The notes below the pieces were generated by a model. It saw only the letters and a list, made by a program, of their open reading frames with translations, was not told the DNA's origin and made no database searches. From Megasphaera stantonii (GTDB lineage Bacteria > Bacillota > Negativicutes > Veillonellales > Megasphaeraceae), in contig NZ_CP029462.1 of assembly GCF_003367905.1 (NCBI RefSeq), positions 2,170,001-2,234,000 on the forward strand: 64,000 nucleotides of DNA. Direction: 5' to 3'. Shown here piece after piece: positions 3,797 to 13,590 of the stretch (position 1 is the stretch's first letter; the number at the start of each line of letters is the position of its first letter). Both the position numbers and the translations under genes were made by a program.

Positions 3797-4978
3797 TTAG
3801 TCGATGTTTTCTACGATGCAAGCCGTGCCCTGGCCGCCGCCGATGCAGAGGGTAGCCAAGCCGTATTTGCCGCCGACTTCTTTCAAGCCGTAGAGCAGCG
3901 TAACGAGGATACGAGCGCCGGAAGCTCCGATCGGATGGCCGAGAGCGATAGCGCCGCCGTGGATGTTGACTTTGCTCATGTCGAGGCCGAGTTCGCGAAC
4001 AACGTATACGGACTGTGCTGCGAACGCTTCGTTAGCTTCTACGAGGGAGAGATCGTCAGCTGTGAGGCCGGCTTTTTCCAAAGCTTTGCGGGAAGAAGGA
4101 ACAGGTCCGATACCCATGATGGAAGGATCAACGCCTGCGGAAGCGTAGCTTACGACTTTAGCCATCGGTTTGAGGCCGAGTTCAGCAGCTTTTTCAGCAG
4201 ACATTACGACGAATGCAGCTGCGCCGTCGTTGATGCCGGATGCGTTGCCAGCCGTTACGGTGCCGCCTTTTTTGAAGGCCGGTTTTAATTTAGCGAGGCT
4301 TTCAACCGTCGTGCCTTCACGCGGGAATTCGTCTGTATCGAAAACAGTGTCGCCTTTTTTGCCATGGATGACGACAGGAACGATCTGATCCTTGAATGCG
4401 CCGCTCTTAATAGCTTCGCAAGCTTTCTGCTGGGAACGAGCGCCCAAAGCGTCCTGATCTTCACGGGAAACGCCGAACTGTTCAGCTACGTTTTCAGCCG
4501 TGATGCCCATGTGGTAATCGTTGAAAGCGTCCCACAAGCCGTCTTTGATCATCGTGTCGACCAATACGCCGTTGCCCATACGGTAGCCATAACGAGCTTT
4601 AGGAATAGCGTACGGAGCTGCGGACATGTTTTCCATACCGCCTGCTACGATAACGTCGGCGTCGCCGGCTTTAATCATCTGAGCGGCGAGGGATACGCAG
4701 CGGAGACCGGAACCGCAGACTTTGTTGATCGTCATAGCCGGCGTTTCAACGGGGAGACCTGCTTTGATCATAGCCTGACGAGCAGGGTTCTGGCCCTGAG
4801 CAGCCTGGAGAACGTTGCCCATAACGACTTCGTCAACGATAGCTTTGTCGATGCCTGCGCGTTTGATGGCTTCTTCGATAACGATAGCGCCCAAATCTGC
4901 TGCAGGAACGTCTTTCAGGGAACCGCCAAATTTACCAATAGCTGTACGGCAAGCACTTACGATTACTACTTCTTTCAC
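3797..4978 (-). CDS. thlA: Acetyl-CoA acetyltransferase (thiolase)
   Basis: This 393-residue protein is full length for biosynthetic thiolase. It carries the acyl-accepting Cys88 ([10 protein letters not shown]), the NEAFAAQ motif, His348 ([12 protein letters not shown]) and the second catalytic Cys378 (CIGGGQGTA). It condenses two acetyl-CoA to acetoacetyl-CoA, the first step of butyrate- and caproate-type chain elongation. Translation starts at GTG with AAGGAG about ten bases upstream. It is monocistronic, with its own terminator and a long AT-rich leader region. A second, divergent thiolase lies at 6717. Confidence 0.95.
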
Positions 4979-5521: not shown

Positions 5522-5554
5522 TTGTTAACTTAAAATAATTTATATAGTTGACAC
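5522..5554 (+). promoter_or_regulatory. Probable BirA operator
   Basis: Half-sites TTGTTAACT (5522-5530) and AGTTGACAC (5546-5554) form an inverted repeat (7 of 9 positions match) separated by 15 bases. This matches the layout of Firmicute BirA (biotin repressor) sites, TTGTTAAC-N14-16-GTTAACAA. The right half overlaps the -35 box of the promoter that reads into bioY, so occupation would block RNA polymerase. Confidence 0.7.
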
Positions 5555-5576
5555 TGATAAATGAAATTGCTATAAT
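5548..5576 (+). promoter_or_regulatory. Sigma-A promoter of the bioY operon
   Basis: A perfect TTGACA (5548-5553), a 17-base spacer and a perfect TATAAT (5571-5576). It lies 28 bases before the first gene and overlaps the putative BirA site. Confidence 0.88.
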
Positions 5577-5609
5577 CCCATACATATTGAACAGAAGGAA
5601 GGGATGCCG

Positions 5610-6194
5610 ATGATGCAGCTGATTCAGCAGCTGGCTGCCTGTAAACGCTATGATTTTTCCGGCTGGTTTCTGGCAGAAGCCTCGCTGTGCCTGGAAGGAG
5701 AGGTTCGTTCGATTTCGCTGGAGGTCTGCCGGAAGACGGAGCGGCGGGCCGTGCTGCAAGTGCTGGGATGGGATGAAGGAGGAAGGTGCCGTCAGTCGCT
5801 GACGGTATTGCTGGTCAAGCCGCTCAGCCTTTCCCGGGAGATTGTATCGGCCGAGGCCGATGGTGCTCCTGACGGCGAAGTCCTGTGGCGTCATGTTTTT
5901 TCTGATGAGGAAATACAGGATTACCTGGCCGTCAGCGGCGATGCCAACGAAATACACCGAGGAAAGGGGGCCGTCGTCCCCGGATTGTGCTTTCTGGAAC
6001 GGCTGCTGTCGTCGATGGATGAGGACGACCTTCGCTGGCGCTGCAAATTCCGAAAGCCCGTATATGCCGGCGAAGAGCTCTGCCTCGTGGAGACGGCTGG
6101 CGGTATGGAAGGCTATGTCGGCGGCCGCCTGGTCAATACGATAGAACGATTATCCTATAAGGAGCGTGTACATGATGAAATCAACAACATATGA
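5610..6194 (+). CDS. MaoC-like hot-dog fold protein (putative hydratase/dehydratase)
   Basis: The product is 194 residues. The C-terminal half carries the MaoC/(R)-hydratase signature SGDANEIH, including the Asp and His expected at the active site, after FSDEEIQDYLAV and before a VPG turn. The N-terminal half may be a second, degenerate hot-dog. It probably hydrates or dehydrates an acyl-CoA or acyl-ACP. It is first in an operon with bioY, a thiolase and an acyl-CoA ligase. The ATG at 5610 is favoured (GAAGGG six bases ahead); ATG 5604 or 5613 are possible. The assignment is moderately sure; the substrate is unknown. Confidence 0.7.
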   Translation: MMQLIQQLAACKRYDFSGWFLAEASLCLEGEVRSISLEVCRKTERRAVLQVLGWDEGGRCRQSLTVLLVKPLSLSREIVSAEADGAPDGEVLWRHVFSDEEIQDYLAVSGDANEIHRGKGAVVPGLCFLERLLSSMDEDDLRWRCKFRKPVYAGEELCLVETAGGMEGYVGGRLVNTIERLSYKERVHDEINNI

Positions 6195-6720
6195 TGCCGG
6201 AACGCTGACGCGGCTGGCCCTGCTCATCGCCATGAACTGCGTATCAGCGTATATGATTATTCCTCTGCCCTTTTCTATGTCGCCTATATCGCTGCAGACG
6301 CTGGTCGTCAATTTGGTGGCCTATCTGCTGCCGCCGAAGCAGGCCTGTGCCGCGATGCTGGCGTACGTCTGCATCGGCCTTATCGGCATCCCCGTGTTTA
6401 CGGGCGGCGCGTCCGGCCCGGGAAAAATGTTCGGCCCTACAGGCGGCTATATTTGGGGGTATGTCGTCGCCGTGACGCTCATTGCCTGGCTGAAGGGGAA
6501 GGAGTACAATTTCAAGCGCTTCGCCCTTGTCGGCGTCTGCATCGGCCTGCCGGTCATCGACGTGCTGGGATGCATCCAGCTGAAGCTCATCACTGGCATG
6601 ACATGGGAGGCGGCCGTGCTCAGCGGCGTGCTCCCCTTTATCCCCTTGGATATCGTCAAGTGCCTGGGGGCGGCGGCTTTGGTCCGGCCCTTGTATAAGA
6701 TCCTGGGTGCGATGCGATGA
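6172..6720 (+). CDS. bioY: Biotin transporter substrate-binding subunit BioY
   Basis: The 182-residue membrane protein has about six helices and the BioY features: SPISLQTLVV, LPPKQACAAMLAYVCIGLIG, GGASGPGKMFGPTGGYIWG and PFIPLDIVKC. BioY binds biotin as the S-component of an ECF transporter or acts alone. AAGGAG at 6159-6164 sets the ATG at 6172. It overlaps the end of the hot-dog gene and the start of the next gene (ATGA), so this is a tightly coupled operon. The BirA-like site upstream supports biotin control. Confidence 0.93.
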   Translation: MMKSTTYDAGTLTRLALLIAMNCVSAYMIIPLPFSMSPISLQTLVVNLVAYLLPPKQACAAMLAYVCIGLIGIPVFTGGASGPGKMFGPTGGYIWGYVVAVTLIAWLKGKEYNFKRFALVGVCIGLPVIDVLGCIQLKLITGMTWEAAVLSGVLPFIPLDIVKCLGAAALVRPLYKILGAMR

Positions 6721-7853
6721 ACGACGTGTATATTATCGGCGGCCTGCGCAGCTACATCGGCGTGTATAACGGCATGTACCGCCATGTGCCGGCAGAGAAG
6801 CTGGGCGCAGCCGTTTTGCAGGAAGTGATCTGCGCATACGGGCTGGTCCGCATCGACGAAATCATCGGCGGCAACAGCGTAGGCTGCGGCGGCAACATTA
6901 CCCGGCTGGCCGCGCTGGAAGCGGGATTGGATGTATCCGTACCGGCCGTGACCGTCGACATGCAGTGCTGCAGCGGCCTGGAAAGCATTGCCATCGCGGC
7001 GGCAAAGGTGGCTTCGGGACAGGCGGAATGTATTCTGGCCGGCGGCTTTGACAGCGCGTCTACCCAGCCGCGGCGAAGCTGTCATCCCAATCATCCGGCC
7101 TACCGCGGCGATGGGGACTGGTACATGACGGCGCAATTCAGCCCGCAGGTATGGAGCGAAGACTCTATGCTCCGCTGCGCCGAATACACGGCGGAACAAT
7201 TCCATATTACGCGGGAGATGCTGGATGCCTGGGTCCTTCGCAGCCATGCTCTGGCCGGAGAGGCCGTGCGGGAAGGCGTGTTTCAGCCGTGCATTGCCCC
7301 TGTATGGGGCGGCGCGCGGGATGAAGGCATTCGCCCAGCCATGCGTCCGCAGCTGCTGCGGCGTTTGAAGCCGGTATTGCCCGATGGAACAGTGATTACA
7401 GCGGCCAATGCCTGCCTCACCAACGACGGTGCAGCCTTTGTGATCGTGTGTTCTCCTGCGTACGCCCGCCGGTATGGACTGCAGCCGGCCGTTAAAATAC
7501 GCGGCGTCGTCTCCTGCGGCACAGACCCGCTGCTGAGTCCCGTCGGAGCGGTGCAGGCCGCAGAAGCCGTGCTGACACGATGCGGTTTGCGCGGCGAAGA
7601 CATAGATATTTTTGAAATCAATGAGGCTTTCGCCCTGATTGGCGAATTATTTGCCCGCCAGTTTCCACGCTGCGTGGCGGCTTACAATCCCTTCGGCGGA
7701 GCCTTGGCATACGGCCATCCTTACGGGGCGACTGGCGCCGTGCTGCTCCTGCACGCTATCGAAGGGCTGCGGGCCCGGGACGGCGCGCTGGGCTGCTGCA
7801 GTATTGCCGGCGCCGGCGGCCTGGGCAAGGCTATGATTATAGAAAGAGTGTAG
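6717..7853 (+). CDS. Thiolase-family protein of the biotin-linked operon (YhfS-like)
   Basis: This 378-residue thiolase keeps the nucleophile (MQCCSGLES, Cys84 by alignment), NEAFALIGELF, the catalytic His (AYGHPYGATGA) and a C-terminal Cys (GCCSIAGAGG). It is clearly divergent from the housekeeping thiolase at 3797. In Bacillus subtilis the BirA-regulated yhfUTS genes pair BioY with a thiolase and an acyl-CoA ligase, which is the same set as here. It may condense acyl-CoA units towards a pimeloyl-type biotin precursor, but this is inference. Confidence 0.88.
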   Translation: MNDVYIIGGLRSYIGVYNGMYRHVPAEKLGAAVLQEVICAYGLVRIDEIIGGNSVGCGGNITRLAALEAGLDVSVPAVTVDMQCCSGLESIAIAAAKVASGQAECILAGGFDSASTQPRRSCHPNHPAYRGDGDWYMTAQFSPQVWSEDSMLRCAEYTAEQFHITREMLDAWVLRSHALAGEAVREGVFQPCIAPVWGGARDEGIRPAMRPQLLRRLKPVLPDGTVITAANACLTNDGAAFVIVCSPAYARRYGLQPAVKIRGVVSCGTDPLLSPVGAVQAAEAVLTRCGLRGEDIDIFEINEAFALIGELFARQFPRCVAAYNPFGGALAYGHPYGATGAVLLLHAIEGLRARDGALGCCSIAGAGGLGKAMIIERV

Positions 7854-7856
7854 ACT

Positions 7857-9101
7857 ATGGATTACTTATCGCTTATTAAAGAACAGGACGCTGAAAAAAC
7901 GGCCCTCGTTACGGAAACCTGCCGGTATACCTACGGCCAGCTGGCGCGCCGGGCTCAGGCGCTGCGGGATGCCGTCGGCGGAGAACGCGCCTGCCAGTGG
8001 ATTTATGCCGATACGATTGCCGAACAACTGATTCAGTTTTTGGCTTACGCCGGCACGAACTGGGTACCGGTCATCGCTCCGCAGACAAGATACGGCCGAC
8101 ATGATTGTTCGCAAGTCCCGCCGGAAGCTGCCTGTATGGGTGTGATGACGTCCGGATCGTCAGGCCGGCCGAAGCTGTGGTGGCGGACCTATGACAGCTG
8201 GGCATCCTTTTTTCCCGCGCAGAACGGCGTATTCGGCGTCGATAAAAACACGGTCATGTTTTGCCAGGGGAGCTTGGCCTTTACGGGGAACTTAAACATG
8301 TATCTCGGCGTATTTTCCGCCGGAGGCACTGTCATAGGAGCCGACGGCTTCCATCCTAAGCAGTGGCTGACGATGATAGAAACGTACCGGGTCAACGCGT
8401 TATATATGATTCCGGCGAAGCTGTTTCTCTTGATGAAGCAGATGAAAGCCTCCGGCTGTGATGCCGATACGGTGACGCACATGATCAGCGGTTCCCAGGC
8501 CTTGGGAAAACGGCAGGCTGGTCAGCTGAAGCAAGTCTTTCCGATGGCAGAGATTGTCTTGTACTACGGTTCCAGCGAATTGAACTATATCACTTACATC
8601 AGGGATGAGGACATGACCGATGACGACACCCTCGTAGGCCGGCCCTTCGCAGGGGTTCATATCGCCATGCAGGAGGACACGCAGGAAATTACCGTCTCCA
8701 CGGCAGGCCATGTGTTGGGGCTTTCCATGCCCTACGCGACCCATGACCGGGGATATATAGACGACGGCCTGCTCCATTACCTTGGCCGCAGCGACGATAT
8801 CTGCCGGGTTAACGGCGTCAGTATATCGGCCTATAAAGTGGAAAGGGCGCTGCGGGAATGCATTCCCGACGCAGAGGGGGCCGTCGTCGTCCTGCGCCGG
8901 CCTCACAGAGACGAGCTCATCGCTTATATTTCTTCATCCGATGTATGGAAACAGGATAAAACGCGTTGCATAGCGGCGCTGCGGCGACGGCTGCTGCCTC
9001 AGGAGGTTCCGGACCGTTTTATTGAAACAGCGAATTTGCCTAAAAATGAAAGCGGAAAAATTGATAAAGGACGTCTATTATCTATGACGAGCTCTTTGTA
9101 A
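7857..9101 (+). CDS. AMP-forming acyl-CoA ligase of the biotin-linked operon (YhfT-like)
   Basis: The 414-residue ANL-superfamily enzyme has the P-loop MTSGSSGRPKLWW, the YYGSSELNY motif, THDRGYIDDGLLHYLGRSDD (the hinge region) and the catalytic lysine near the end (NLPKNESGKIDKGRL). It is shorter than typical fatty acyl-CoA synthetases (about 500) because the N-terminal domain is compact. It activates a carboxylate with ATP to an adenylate and then a CoA thioester. It follows the thiolase gene by three bases and ends the operon. The substrate is unknown; a dicarboxylic acid would fit a biotin-precursor role. Confidence 0.87.
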   Translation: MDYLSLIKEQDAEKTALVTETCRYTYGQLARRAQALRDAVGGERACQWIYADTIAEQLIQFLAYAGTNWVPVIAPQTRYGRHDCSQVPPEAACMGVMTSGSSGRPKLWWRTYDSWASFFPAQNGVFGVDKNTVMFCQGSLAFTGNLNMYLGVFSAGGTVIGADGFHPKQWLTMIETYRVNALYMIPAKLFLLMKQMKASGCDADTVTHMISGSQALGKRQAGQLKQVFPMAEIVLYYGSSELNYITYIRDEDMTDDDTLVGRPFAGVHIAMQEDTQEITVSTAGHVLGLSMPYATHDRGYIDDGLLHYLGRSDDICRVNGVSISAYKVERALRECIPDAEGAVVVLRRPHRDELIAYISSSDVWKQDKTRCIAALRRRLLPQEVPDRFIETANLPKNESGKIDKGRLLSMTSSL

Positions 9102-9113
9102 TTGTGATATAAT
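9085..9113 (+). promoter_or_regulatory. Extended -10 promoter of deoD
   Basis: TGATATAAT (extended -10, TATAAT at 9108-9113) with a weak -35 (TGACGA, 9085-9090) 17 bases upstream. It begins inside the end of the acyl-CoA ligase gene. Confidence 0.6.
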
Positions 9114-9172: not shown

Positions 9173-9880
9173 ATGAGTTTGCACATTGAAGCCAAGACAG
9201 GCGATATTGCCGAGAATATCCTGCTTCCCGGCGACCCGCTGCGGGCTCAGTATATAGCGGAGCATTTTTTAGACGGCGCCGTCTGCTACAACCGGGTCCG
9301 CAATATGCTTGGATATACGGGAACCTATAAGGGGCACGCCGTTTCCGTCCAGGGCACGGGGATGGGGATTCCTTCTATTTCCATATACGCGACGGAGCTC
9401 ATGCGTGATTACGGCGTCAAAAAGCTGATCCGCGTCGGTACCTGCGGCGCGATGCGCGAGGATATCCGGCTGCGCGACGTCGTCATCGCCCAGGGGGCTA
9501 CGACGGATTCGTCTATTATACGCAACATCTTCGGCCCGTCCATCAATTACGCGCCTCTGGCAGATTTCGAGCTGCTCCGGAAGGCCTACGACGCGGCGGC
9601 GCGGCAGAACATCCCCGTCCGCGTCGGCAATATCGTCTCAGTAGACCGGTTTTATGATGATGAAATCGATAATGACAAATTGACGGCGTACGGCATCATG
9701 GCTGTGGAAATGGAAACGGCAGGGCTATACGTGCTGGCGGCGAAATACGGCGTTCAGGTCTTGGGCTTGTTTACCGTAAGCGATCATTTGCTGACCAAGG
9801 AAGCCTGCACGGCAGAAGAACGGCAGACGTCCTTTGACGACATGATCCGCATTGCTCTGGAAACGATCACAGCCGAGTAG
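9173..9880 (+). CDS. deoD: Purine nucleoside phosphorylase DeoD-type
   Basis: The 235-residue product fits the hexameric bacterial enzyme. Motifs include [44 protein letters not shown] and TVSDHLLT (the catalytic Asp). It cleaves purine (deoxy)nucleosides with phosphate to base and (deoxy)ribose-1-phosphate. GAGGAGG precedes the ATG. An amidohydrolase follows 12 bases after the stop, probably in the same transcript, which hints at a nucleobase- or amide-salvage role for that gene. Confidence 0.95.
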
Positions 9881-10829: not shown

Positions 10830-12188
10830 ATGGAACAAATCAAACAAGAAAAACGAACAAGAAAAGTGAATATGCTGGAAGGCTCGCTGTGGGATAAAAT
10901 CCTCATCGTAGCCTTGCCCTTCGCCTTTACGGGTATTATGCAGCAGCTGTTTAACGCCGCCGACATCGCCATGCTCGGCCAGTTTGTCGGAAAGGAGGCT
11001 ATGGCGGCCGTCGGCAGCAACAGCCCGATTATCGCCATGGTGCTGAGTTTGTTTATCGGCGTGTCCCTGGGGGCAAACGTCGTCATCGCCCGGTTTATCG
11101 GCAAGAAAAATATCCACGGCGTCCATGCTGCTGTCCACACGGCCATACTCGTCGCCCTGGGAAGCGGCGTAGTCATGACGATTCTGGGGGAAATCGCGGC
11201 GGCTCCCCTGCTGCGGGCCTTGTCGGTGCCCGATGAAATTTTCGACATGTCCGTGCTGTACCTGCGGATTTTTCTCTTAGGCATGCCGGTCATCCTGCTG
11301 TATAACTTCGAATCGTCGATTTTCCGCAGCCAGGGAGATACGCGGACGCCCTTGTACTGCCTGATCGTTTCCGGCGTAGTTAAATTCTTTTTGAATCTCT
11401 TTTTTATCCTCGTCCTCGACATGTCTGTCGAAGGCGTGGCCATCGGCACAGTCGTTGCCAGTACGATCAGTTCGGGACTGCTCTTTTATTTCCTGTGCCG
11501 CAGCACGACGGATATCCGCGTCCATTTGCAGGATTTCCACGTAGATAAGCGGATACTCATGCCCATGCTGCGTATCGGCCTGCCGGCAGGCGTGCAGGGC
11601 ATGGTCTTCGCCTTGTCGAATCTGTGCATCCAGTCGGCGATCAACGGCTTAGGGCCCGACGTCATGGCCGCCTCAGCGGCGGCGTTCAACGTAGAAATTT
11701 TCATCTTTTTCATCGTCAACGCCTTCGGACAGGTCTGTACGACCTTTGTCAGCCAGAATTACGGCGCCCGCAAGCTGGACCGGTGCAAGCAGGTGCTGAA
11801 ATGGTGCCTTGTGCAGGATATTATCATCGGTGTAGCCTGCGGCGCTTTCGTGTACGCCTTCGGCATACCGATTTTAAGTATTTTCAACAGCGACGCCGCC
11901 GTCATTGCTTACGGCATGATACGGGTGACCTACGTCGGCTGCCTGGAGGTCATCGAGTCGCTTATCGACGTATTTTCCGGGGCCATGCGCGGCTACGGCA
12001 GCTCGCTCATACCGGCTCTCATCACGCTGTTCGGCATCTGCGGCACCCGCATTGCCTGGGTATACACGGTCTTTTCCTGGGAGCCTGATTTTGAAACGCT
12101 GATGATGGTCTTTCCTATCAGCTGGGGCGTCTCGGCAGTCATTCTCATCGCAGCGTATCAATGGTTTGTCAAGCATCTGCGGGCATAG
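10830..12188 (+). CDS. MATE-family multidrug efflux transporter (copy 1)
   Basis: The 452-residue protein has about twelve membrane helices in two homologous halves, as expected of MATE (NorM/MepA-type) Na+- or H+-coupled exporters. Typical stretches are LPFAFTGIMQQLFNAADIAM, NFESSIFRSQGDTRTPLY and SQNYGARKLDRCKQ. It is the first of two very similar copies in tandem. The ribosome site is weak (start region AAGTTGATATGG). The exported compound is unknown. Confidence 0.9.
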   Translation: MEQIKQEKRTRKVNMLEGSLWDKILIVALPFAFTGIMQQLFNAADIAMLGQFVGKEAMAAVGSNSPIIAMVLSLFIGVSLGANVVIARFIGKKNIHGVHAAVHTAILVALGSGVVMTILGEIAAAPLLRALSVPDEIFDMSVLYLRIFLLGMPVILLYNFESSIFRSQGDTRTPLYCLIVSGVVKFFLNLFFILVLDMSVEGVAIGTVVASTISSGLLFYFLCRSTTDIRVHLQDFHVDKRILMPMLRIGLPAGVQGMVFALSNLCIQSAINGLGPDVMAASAAAFNVEIFIFFIVNAFGQVCTTFVSQNYGARKLDRCKQVLKWCLVQDIIIGVACGAFVYAFGIPILSIFNSDAAVIAYGMIRVTYVGCLEVIESLIDVFSGAMRGYGSSLIPALITLFGICGTRIAWVYTVFSWEPDFETLMMVFPISWGVSAVILIAAYQWFVKHLRA

Positions 12189-12240
12189 CGGTGTGCTGCG
12201 GAGGGCTCTGTTTCATCCGTAAGGTCAGGTGTGCGGCAAT

Positions 12241-13590
12241 ATGAATAGAAAGAACAATACGAGAAGCGTCAACATGCTCGAAGGCTCGCTGTGGGATAAG
12301 ATCCTCGTCGTGGCCTTGCCTTTCGCCTTTACGGGCATCATGCAGCAGCTGTTCAACGCCGCCGACATCGCCATGCTCGGCCAGTTTGTCGGCAAGGAGG
12401 CCATGGCGGCCGTCGGCAGCAACAGCCCAATCATCGGCATGGTGCTGAGCCTGTTTATCGGCATATCGCTGGGAGCGAACGTCATCATCGCCCGCTTTAT
12501 CGGCAAGAAGAATATCCACGGCGTCCACGCCGCCGTCCATACGGCTATCCTCGTCGCCCTGGGATGCGGCGTCGCCATGGCCATCGCAGGCGAGCTCCTG
12601 GTCGAGCCGCTGCTGCGCCTCTTATCGGTGCCGGAAGAAATTTTCGATCTGGCCGTCTTGTATCTGCGCGTTTTTTGGCTGGCCATGCCGTTTATCTTGC
12701 TGTATAATTTCGAATCGTCGATTTTCCGCAGCCAGGGCGATACGCGCACGCCCCTGTATTGCCTGATTGCGTCGGGCATTACTAAATTTTTCCTGAATTT
12801 ATTCTTCATCCTCGTTCTGGACATGTCCGTTGAAGGCGTGGCAATCGGCACGATCGTCGCGACGGCCCTGAGTTCGGCCATGCTGTTTTATTTCCTGTGC
12901 CGCAGCCAGACGGAAATCCGCGTCCGCCTGACGGAGTTTCATGTGGATAAACGGATTCTCCTTCCTATGCTGCGCATCGGCCTGCCTGCAGGGATGCAGG
13001 GCATGGTCTTCGCCTTGTCCAATCTCTGCATCCAGTCGGCTATCAATGAATTGGGCCCCGACGTCATGGCGGCCTCGGCAGCGGCCTTCAACCTGGAAAT
13101 CTTTACCTTCTTCCTGATCAACGCCTTCGGACAGGTCTGCACGACCTTCGTCAGCCAGAATTACGGGGCCCGGAACATAAGACGGTGCAAACAGGCGATG
13201 AAGTGGTGCCTGTTTCAGGACCTGCTGCTGACGGCCTGTATTTGCGCCCTGCTGATCCTGTTCGGCGTGCCCTTGCTGCATATTTTCAGCGACGACAGTA
13301 CGGTCGTCGCCTTGGGCTTTATCCGCCTGAAATACGTGGCCGGCCTGGAATTTATCAACGCCGTCATCGAAGTGGTGTCCGGAGCGATGCGCGGCTACGG
13401 CAGCTCGCTCATACCGGCGCTGATTACCCTCTTCGGCATCTGCGGCACCCGCGTGACCTGGGTGTATACCGTCTTTGCCTGGGAACCTGATTTTGCGACG
13501 CTCATGATGGTATTTCCCGTCAGCTGGGCCGTCACGGCAGTGATTCTCTGTGCGGCCTATGCCTGGTTTGTTAAGCAGCTGAAAGCTTGA
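12241..13590 (+). CDS. MATE-family multidrug efflux transporter (copy 2)
   Basis: At 449 residues this is near-identical in long stretches to the preceding MATE protein (for example LPFAFTGIMQQLFNAADIAM and FESSIFRSQGDTRTPLY in both), with most differences in the last quarter. ATG 12241 aligns with the start of copy 1; an in-frame GTG at 12229 is an alternative. It follows copy 1 after about 50 bases with no terminator, so co-transcription is likely. This is a recent-looking tandem duplication. Confidence 0.9.
   Translation: MNRKNNTRSVNMLEGSLWDKILVVALPFAFTGIMQQLFNAADIAMLGQFVGKEAMAAVGSNSPIIGMVLSLFIGISLGANVIIARFIGKKNIHGVHAAVHTAILVALGCGVAMAIAGELLVEPLLRLLSVPEEIFDLAVLYLRVFWLAMPFILLYNFESSIFRSQGDTRTPLYCLIASGITKFFLNLFFILVLDMSVEGVAIGTIVATALSSAMLFYFLCRSQTEIRVRLTEFHVDKRILLPMLRIGLPAGMQGMVFALSNLCIQSAINELGPDVMAASAAAFNLEIFTFFLINAFGQVCTTFVSQNYGARNIRRCKQAMKWCLFQDLLLTACICALLILFGVPLLHIFSDDSTVVALGFIRLKYVAGLEFINAVIEVVSGAMRGYGSSLIPALITLFGICGTRVTWVYTVFAWEPDFATLMMVFPVSWAVTAVILCAAYAWFVKQLKA

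Follow-up and report, generated by a model that had tools for sequence, protein, structure and literature searches.

The window analysed here, a 64,000-nucleotide stretch of Megasphaera stantonii DNA, contains four genes, encoding a hydratase-like protein (ORF1), the biotin importer component BioY, a thiolase-fold enzyme and an acyl-CoA ligase, that appear to be under a biotin-sensing BirA-type switch. The explanation that we favor, with slightly less than even confidence, is a BirA-repressed cassette for the salvage of biotin vitamers, in which import would be coupled to restoration of the side chain via CoA thioesters, through putative reactions. The host is seemingly unable to make biotin; thus, the enzymes probably serve to restore biotin-like molecules that the cell scavenges, and not to make an early precursor of the vitamin.

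The genes are arranged in the order ORF1, bioY, thiolase and ligase (Table 1). Adjacent genes overlap or lie 3 bases apart, and we infer that all four are co-transcribed. Judging by the alignment and by the ribosome-binding site, ORF1 is more likely to start at 5610 or 5613 than at 5604, and the start of bioY is uncertain (GTG at 6166, or ATG at 6172 or 6175). BioY has a single match in the M. stantonii genome.

Table 1. Features of the bioY operon of M. stantonii (positions in the window).
Feature	Position	Strand	Basis
BirA-type operator, TTGTTAAC-N17-GTTGACAC	5522..5554	+	Pattern match; kept ahead of related cassettes
Sigma-70 promoter, TTGACA-N17-TATAAT	5548..5576	+	12/12 consensus matches; -35 inside right operator arm
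ORF1, double-hot-dog MaoC/hydratase-2 relative	5604..6194	+	Fold of predicted model; D113-x4-H118
bioY, S component of biotin ECF importer	6166..6720	+	PF02632, 134 bits
Thiolase-fold enzyme	6717..7853	+	Cys84/Asn302/His334 retained; Ala364 in place of the CxG cysteine
Short AMP-forming acyl-CoA ligase, 414 aa	7857..9101	+	Conserved catalytic residues

The left operator arm, TTGTTAAC (5522-5529), is separated by a 17-base gap from the right arm, GTTGACAC (5547-5554), and the site differs from TTGTTAAC-N-GTTAACAA at two positions. The -35 element occupies 5548-5553, and the right arm therefore sits on it; the promoter has a 17-base spacer, with TATAAT ending at 5576. Across the genome (2.65 Mb, single contig), the pattern TTGTNAAC-N13-19-GTTNACA matches exactly only once, at this site, while the reversed control pattern has no match. 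The preliminary description, in which a palindrome fitting the BirA site overlaps the -35 box of a consensus promoter, is thus confirmed by the coordinates, the full consensus match and the uniqueness of the site; its assignment of the genes to BioY, thiolase, ligase and hot-dog hydratase families was likewise borne out. The only BPL-family match in the genome is a BirA of 322 aa with an N-terminal DNA-binding domain (Pfam HTH_11, residues 2–55, 55.3 bits; cut-off, 25). Two marks of a group II BirA regulon, an operator at the promoter and a BirA with a DNA-binding domain, are present. No site with at most one mismatch was found in the stretches around M. stantonii bioB or birA.

The operator recurs in related cassettes. 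In the host order, a site with at most 3/16 mismatches lies 5' of the first gene in 18/18 loci read, including L042, where a two-mismatch site appears once the gene start is corrected; equally good sites arise in 2 to 8% of shuffles for six of the 18. Of 237 confirmed thiolase matches, 80 loci were kept as a wider set. In 49 of 76 of these (four were left out, having no thiolase frame or a short upstream region), the upstream sequence carries a site with no more than one mismatch, compared with 2/341 downstream windows and 1/1520 shuffles of the same upstream sequences.

The thiolase-fold enzyme scores above the cut-off of the broad TIGR01930 subfamily (326.7 vs 240.55 bits). It shares with classical thiolases the nucleophilic Cys84 and the NEAF and GHP motifs, and the corresponding Cys, Asn and His are present in 96/96 thiolase-fold sequences; the wider loci were scanned with the patterns ALAYGHP[YF]G and [FVI]E[WY]NEAFA, so the invariance of these motifs there is partly by construction. 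In contrast, the acid/base cysteine of the CxG motif, on which classical thiolases depend, is replaced in all 96 cassette enzymes, by Ala in 92 and by Pro in 4. A canonical thiolase nearby (3797-4978) retains CIGGG.

The ligase matches PF00501 with 81.9 bits, and its top-scoring families are acyl-CoA synthetases. Residues S99, G100, E241, D297, R311 and K401 are invariant in 18 ligases and in 95/95 of the wider set; they presumably provide the P-loop, the catalytic Glu, Asp and Arg, and the C-terminal Lys that characterize ANL ligases.

No Pfam family matches ORF1 at 1e-3, and its score against the MaoC family (PF01575) is 14.8 bits, under the cut-off of 27. Its predicted structure (pLDDT 89), however, has the double hot-dog fold of MaoC/hydratase 2 proteins and superimposes on the dehydratase-type protein HtdX with a Z score of 17.3 and an rmsd of 2.4 over 168 residues. 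With HtdX (Rv0241c) and peroxisomal MFE-2, ORF1 shares the fold over nearly the whole chain, as well as an Asp-x4-His pair (D113 and H118) in the C-terminal half, which we take to be the hydratase 2 catalytic dyad. All 32 ORF1 sequences compared, the M. stantonii copy among them, keep D113, N115, H118 and G127. ORF1 differs from the HtdX/hydratase-2 group in its low identity (∼15%) and is shorter (196 residues, compared to 233 for HtdX chain 3wew). The fold and the invariant dyad support the earlier view that a MaoC-like hot-dog protein with an active-site motif leads the operon and, as its recurrence in 55/80 wider loci indicates, that the hydratase is part of the set.

These wider loci span Clostridia, Negativicutes and one spirochaete record. 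Thiolase and ligase occur together in 78 of the 80 loci, with BioY in 71 and with all four genes in 49; ORF1 was not found in 25, some of which end at contig ends. The position of BioY varies (first, second, last or divergent), but it remains near. Within ∼6.5 kb around the thiolase, no other gene cluster occurs in more than 8 loci, and neighbor clustering recovered no recurrent dedicated partner gene (reductase, esterase or dehydrogenase), in particular no ketoreductase or enoyl reductase. In six loci (L099, L100, L110, L112, L117 and L143), bioB lies upstream on the same strand. An operator with 0–1 mismatch lies between bioY and bioB in four of the five bioB-headed loci examined (L112 left out); the exception is L110, in which the start of bioY has probably been overcalled. 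BioY copies elsewhere also adjoin bioD or bioB, as if each BioY importer were paired with an enzyme for its cargo. Two host-order loci, L037 and L049, have ORF1 and BioY but, over the stretch that was read, neither thiolase nor ligase.

The M. stantonii genome is estimated to be 99.95% complete. Searches of it for bioF, bioW and bioD found none; bioB is present. From its gene content, the organism seems to be a biotin auxotroph. Among 73 genomes that carry the cassette, or ORF1 at the least (after removal of G082 and G085, duplicates of G055 and G060), BioF and BioW are both found in the same 30 and neither in the other 43. Eight of the 73, all from the host order, had no thiolase and ligase seen: the cassette region was left out for six (G040, where the ORF1 match contains a stop, G045, G047, G049, G051 and G052), and two (G041 and G046) have ORF1 and BioY only. 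All eight have BioF and BioW; hence a second count of the 65 genomes with thiolase and ligase seen, which gives both in 22 and neither in 43.

Fifty genomes from the 80 loci, 25 without MAG or uncultured in the title (6 with bioF) and 25 others, of unstated completeness, were classified by their content of bioF, bioB and bioD, with limits of 1e-30, 1e-50 and 1e-15 in the searches. Nine have all three genes, one has bioF alone of the three, 11 have bioB and bioD without bioF, 17 have only bioB, and 12 have none. The cassette thus persists with every pathway truncation tested among these genomes. The thiolase tree groups the M. stantonii enzyme with those of Phascolarctobacterium and Acidaminococcaceae in one clade (local support 0.99), which suggests acquisition of the cassette by horizontal gain. 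The recipient was probably a lineage without bioF, because the genome has only bioB, the cassette genes are intact, the thiolase belongs to this clade, and 14 congeners gave no match to ORF1. To see if Bacillus YhfS shares the loss of the CxG cysteine, it was sought in plasmid records: 1563 matched, all below 60% identity, with no Bacillus among the 25 matches listed.

The salvage cassette could operate as follows. When biotin is scarce, BirA would leave the operator and all four genes would be expressed. BioY, with a shared ECF motor, would take up biotin and related vitamers, among them a biotin or dethiobiotin vitamer whose side chain is altered. The ligase would convert a vitamer with a non-biotin side chain to its CoA thioester, the thiolase-fold enzyme would add or remove a two-carbon unit, and the hydratase would catalyze a 3-hydroxy/2-enoyl step, with general fatty-acid reductases supplying the remaining reductions. 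The end product would be biotin, or dethiobiotin to be finished by BioB. We infer repression in vivo, as well as the substrate, direction and product of the cassette. Bisnorbiotin is a known host breakdown product of biotin. A specific version, which we consider rather unlikely, is that bisnorbiotin or its dethio form is re-extended: imported by BioY, activated to the CoA ester, lengthened by two carbons by the thiolase-fold enzyme, dehydrated by ORF1 and reduced to biotinyl-CoA by enzymes of fatty-acid metabolism.

Counting for salvage are the conserved operator, the persistent proximity of BioY, the bioB-headed loci, an occurrence independent of BioF and BioW, the probable gain by a lineage without bioF and the BioY copies beside bioD or bioB. 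Counting against it, with a substrate that is putative, are the replaced CxG cysteine, the lack of a recurrent reductase, the 25 of 80 loci in which ORF1 was not found, the two loci with neither thiolase nor ligase, the presence of BioW and BioF in 30/73 genomes, and the M. stantonii bioB without a BirA site at up to one mismatch. Thiolase condensation is also thermodynamically uphill. A literature search for bacterial side-chain repair of biotin or use of bisnorbiotin returned nothing relevant, which neither supports nor refutes salvage.

Instead of acting on the vitamin, the enzymes could spare it. When biotin is scarce, so that acetyl-CoA carboxylase fails and malonyl-CoA runs short, they would use exogenous acids and acetyl-CoA to build acyl chains, or to extend them, with no need for malonyl-CoA. 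This alternative, to which we give only a minor share of our confidence, accounts for BirA control and for the independence from BioF, BioW and BioB, and it suits a ligase whose best families are acyl-CoA synthetases. It leaves unexplained the persistent proximity of BioY and the six operons headed by bioB, and it too is at odds with a thiolase without the CxG cysteine and with the lack of a recurrent reductase nearby.

The preliminary description proposed the building or recycling of a pimeloyl-type precursor by CoA-linked chain extension. Stated as a rival reading, CoA-linked lengthening of glutarate, or else the trimming of longer diacids, would give a pimeloyl precursor for BioW and BioF. 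BioW needs free pimelate and accompanies BioF in 30/30 genomes, and the source of this pimelate is described as unknown in a 2024 review (PMC11089781). Within the host order, moreover, bioF occurs in 22/25 genomes with ORF1 compared to 14/36 without detected ORF1 (the 36 genomes counted with bioF include five below the model cut-off, at 357–426 bits, and exclude G027 and G028, at 233–238 bits). This association may reflect descent only, and the 14 genomes with bioF and no detected ORF1 count against supply; the host-order search used ORF1 alone as the query, and absence of ORF1 is therefore not absence of the core cassette. The pimeloyl-CoA route needs BioW to make pimeloyl-CoA and BioF to use it. 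A check for bioW, as suggested earlier, shows that it is missing from M. stantonii; bioF and bioD are missing too, and the genome therefore has no recognised user of pimeloyl-CoA. Unless an unrecognised BioF exists, pimeloyl supply is already refuted for this organism. It was also rejected as a general function on the bioF, bioD, bioB and bioW counts, since neither BioF nor BioW is found in 43 of the 73 genomes (or of the 65), M. stantonii among them, and 12/50 have none of BioB, BioD and BioF. The pair, often with the hydratase, thus occurs in many anaerobes without detected BioF, so that the precursor idea cannot be general; overall we regard it as improbable.

A natural unsaturated biotin analogue exists, and detoxification of such an antimetabolite, unsaturated or otherwise chain-modified, entering via the induced BioY would fit co-expression of BioY in auxotrophs, the independence from synthesis genes and, given the predicted fold, a hydratase suited to 2,3-unsaturated side chains, but with a very broad distribution across anaerobes and no explanation for the six bioB-headed operons, we find it the least probable of these readings.

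If the salvage reading is true, biotin auxotrophy in gut communities has in part been misjudged and there is a route for repair of the vitamin; if it takes the bisnorbiotin form, auxotrophic gut and rumen anaerobes would regain a vitamin considered lost. A small testable list of substrates follows, namely biotin and dethiobiotin vitamers.

The closest known systems are yhfUTS of Bacillus (BioY, ligase YhfT and thiolase YhfS) and yhfT-yhfS of Staphylococcus aureus, which share the BirA operator and the set of BioY, thiolase and ligase. To our knowledge, what the BirA-controlled thiolase-ligase pair does has been an open question ever since the 2002 regulon paper. Among equivalog-type NCBIfam models, PRK06690 scores best for the thiolase and PRK07638 for the ligase; we take these models to correspond to Bacillus yhfS and yhfT. 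The scores are far under the cut-offs (250.9 vs 498 and 111.5 vs 518 bits, respectively), but these best models support the likeness to yhfUTS drawn earlier. The M. stantonii operon differs in being led by a hydratase and in its genome, without BioF, BioW or BioD. B. subtilis needs no external biotin. S. aureus is likewise described as a biotin prototroph (PMC12642757), and its BirA is reported to bind the yhfS-yhfT promoter and to repress it in a reporter strain (PMC6391492).

The BioZ pathway, as reviewed, converts glutaryl-CoA and malonyl-ACP to 3-ketopimeloyl-ACP and is similar in concept, in that a CoA-linked chain is extended for biotin (PMC11089781). BioZ, however, resembles FabH and is no thiolase, and further use of its product depends on BioF, which was not found in M. 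stantonii. The gut biotin auxotroph variant A1, described as having BioB and BirA only, with dethiobiotin salvage proposed (PMC6593275), fits the M. stantonii genes tested (BirA and BioB were found, BioF and BioD were not); the available text of that description makes no mention of a thiolase-ligase-hydratase cassette. Both bioY and yhfS-yhfT are already known to be controlled by BirA, and the M. stantonii operon is a variant of this in having a hydratase and in its auxotroph setting.

The cassette of ORF1, bioY, thiolase and ligase lies in this order downstream of a BirA-type operator (see table), with neighbouring genes overlapping or 3 bases apart. The promoter agrees with the consensus at each of 12 positions, and its spacer is 17 bases long. 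In the whole M. stantonii genome (one contig of 2,652,760 bases, completeness estimate 99.95%), the operator pattern has this single match, and its reversed control has none. The gene after the ligase is on the same strand; the site listing of the window gives no terminator-like site between the two, and a promoter-like site precedes that gene. The biotin protein ligase family has one match in the genome, a BirA of 322 residues with an N-terminal HTH_11 domain (Pfam scan), a form that, judged from its sequence, could repress. Expression of the cassette under biotin scarcity is predicted. Elsewhere in the window, two tandem MatE-family transporter genes look very similar.

Features of the window and of loci (L) read in this genome and in relatives
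Feature	Location	Strand	Remarks
Acetyl-CoA acetyltransferase-type thiolase, canonical	3797-4978	minus	Divergent from operon; CxG motif intact
BirA-type operator, TTGTTAAC-N17-GTTGACAC	5522-5554		Right arm holds promoter -35
Promoter-like site	9084-9113		10/12 matches; ahead of gene starting at 9173
MatE-family transporter	10830-12188		PF01554
MatE-family transporter	12229-13590		PF01554
bioB of M. stantonii	L032:10074-11075		Divergent from GntR/aminotransferase (MocR-type) gene at 11277-12680 (Pfam scan)
Extra BioY	L179:5800-7131		Stretch where BioY adjoins bioD or bioB
Membrane-like protein	L172:8579-9082		Adjoins bioW-bioF
Membrane-like protein	L177:6465-6950		Adjoins bioW-bioF

ORF1 matches no Pfam family at 1e-3 and scores only 14.8 bits against the MaoC family. 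Its predicted structure is confident (pLDDT 89); among solved structures, HtdX of Mycobacterium and enzymes of the hydratase-2 type come closest to it. The D-N-IH active-site motif assigned in the preliminary description is a sound call, since the model is a double hot-dog and Asp113, Asn115, His118 and Gly127 are the sole invariant residues among 32 aligned ORF1 sequences, this one included. The thiolase retains the nucleophilic Cys84, Asn302 and His334, while the CxG cysteine is replaced in all 96 aligned sequences (alanine in 92, proline in 4). This loss suggests an altered thiolase chemistry, perhaps with condensation driven another way. The ligase is short, yet its P-loop Ser99-Gly100, Glu241, Asp297, Arg311 and Lys401 are invariant in the aligned relatives. 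The thiolase scores above the cut-off of TIGR01930, a broad subfamily model. PRK06690 and PRK07638 are the best models of equivalog type for thiolase and ligase, and because both proteins fall far short of the cut-offs they are, by sequence, relatives rather than filed members of these families.

Of 61 Veillonellales genomes, 25 have a relative of ORF1, M. stantonii among them; none of 14 congeners does. Eighteen of the 24 other ORF1-bearing loci were read. The four genes follow one another in 16 of them, and an operator-like site (at most 3/16 mismatches) stands before the first gene in every one of the 18; in L037 and L049, ORF1 and BioY are present, and thiolase and ligase were not seen in the stretch read. 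When species genomes were scanned with the thiolase, 80 wider loci were obtained, containing thiolase and ligase (78), BioY (72), ORF1 (55) or all four (49), and neighbour clustering found no other gene cluster recurring near the thiolase in more than 8 of them. With no more than one mismatch allowed, 49 of 76 wider loci have an operator site upstream; among the controls, such a site was found in 2 of 341 windows taken downstream and in 1 of 1520 shuffles. At this threshold, 11 of the 13 stretches read near bioF, bioD or bioB in relatives hold BirA-type sites (none in L183 and L184), although some may be due to chance, as each stretch spans 11-17 kb; around the M. stantonii bioB there is none. 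Six loci have bioB ahead of the cassette enzymes, in the same orientation as these and divergent from bioY.

M. stantonii has bioB. A missing bioW, considered in the preliminary description, was borne out by profile searches, but bioD is likewise unmatched and the best bioF match reaches only 19 bits (25 bits at best across the genus, where the cut-off is 426). In 50 wider genomes, bioF was found in 10, bioB in 37 and bioD in 20; 17 have bioB alone of the three and 12 have none. Where thiolase and ligase were both seen (65 genomes), BioF and BioW are present in 22 and neither is in 43. BioY is present, in one or more copies, in all 73 distinct genomes that carry the cassette or at least ORF1, and the cassette copy is the only one in M. 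stantonii.

Extra BioY genes often adjoin bioD or bioB (L179, G030:C17, G003:C1, G066:C207, G066:C179, G100:C97 and G069:C7), as if each importer were paired with the enzyme for the vitamer brought in. Three genomes (G003, G006, G008) each have three full-length bioB matches within one stretch of ~3.1-3.9 kb, as if triplicated. In two relatives, a membrane-like protein of 161-167 residues resembles an ECF S component by eye and has no Pfam match at 1e-3; its gene in L172 follows a BirA-type site. It is a candidate pimelate importer.

In the tree, the thiolase groups with Phascolarctobacterium and other Acidaminococcaceae (local support 0.99; position within the clade unresolved), far from Veillonella and other members of its own order. 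Its best-segment identity to the four closest Phascolarctobacterium records is 55-60%, and two Veillonella records reach 46%. This grouping, together with the absence of ORF1 from congeners, suggests entry of the cassette into a lineage already without bioF, with operator and active sites retained. The building or recycling of a pimeloyl-type precursor, as originally proposed, is hard to reconcile with such a gain.

The cassette is tied to a biotin importer, and sometimes to biotin synthase, and is retained however much of biotin biosynthesis remains. An action on imported vitamers agrees with all of these features and with the predicted expression, a biotin-sparing role in fatty-acid metabolism with most of them. 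Pimelate supply, which 30 of the 73 genomes, having both BioF and BioW, could in principle use, and which gains from the positive association of ORF1 with bioF inside the order (bioF in 22/25 genomes with ORF1, 14/36 without), is opposed by the 43 genomes, M. stantonii included, in which both are missing. For the role on imported vitamers, we propose re-extension of bisnorbiotin, a known breakdown product (PMC10670868, PMC11203980), by two carbons, for which a ligase, a condensing enzyme and a dehydratase would be required on top of common reductases. Dethiobiotin salvage has already been proposed for gut auxotrophs with BioB alone (PMC6593275).

In S. aureus, BirA is established as the regulator of bioY and yhfS-yhfT (PMC6391492, PMC7235819), and a review lists this control for both B. 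subtilis and S. aureus (PMC11089781). The recurrent hydratase, the absent CxG cysteine and the independence from BioF and BioW are new, as far as the literature was searched.
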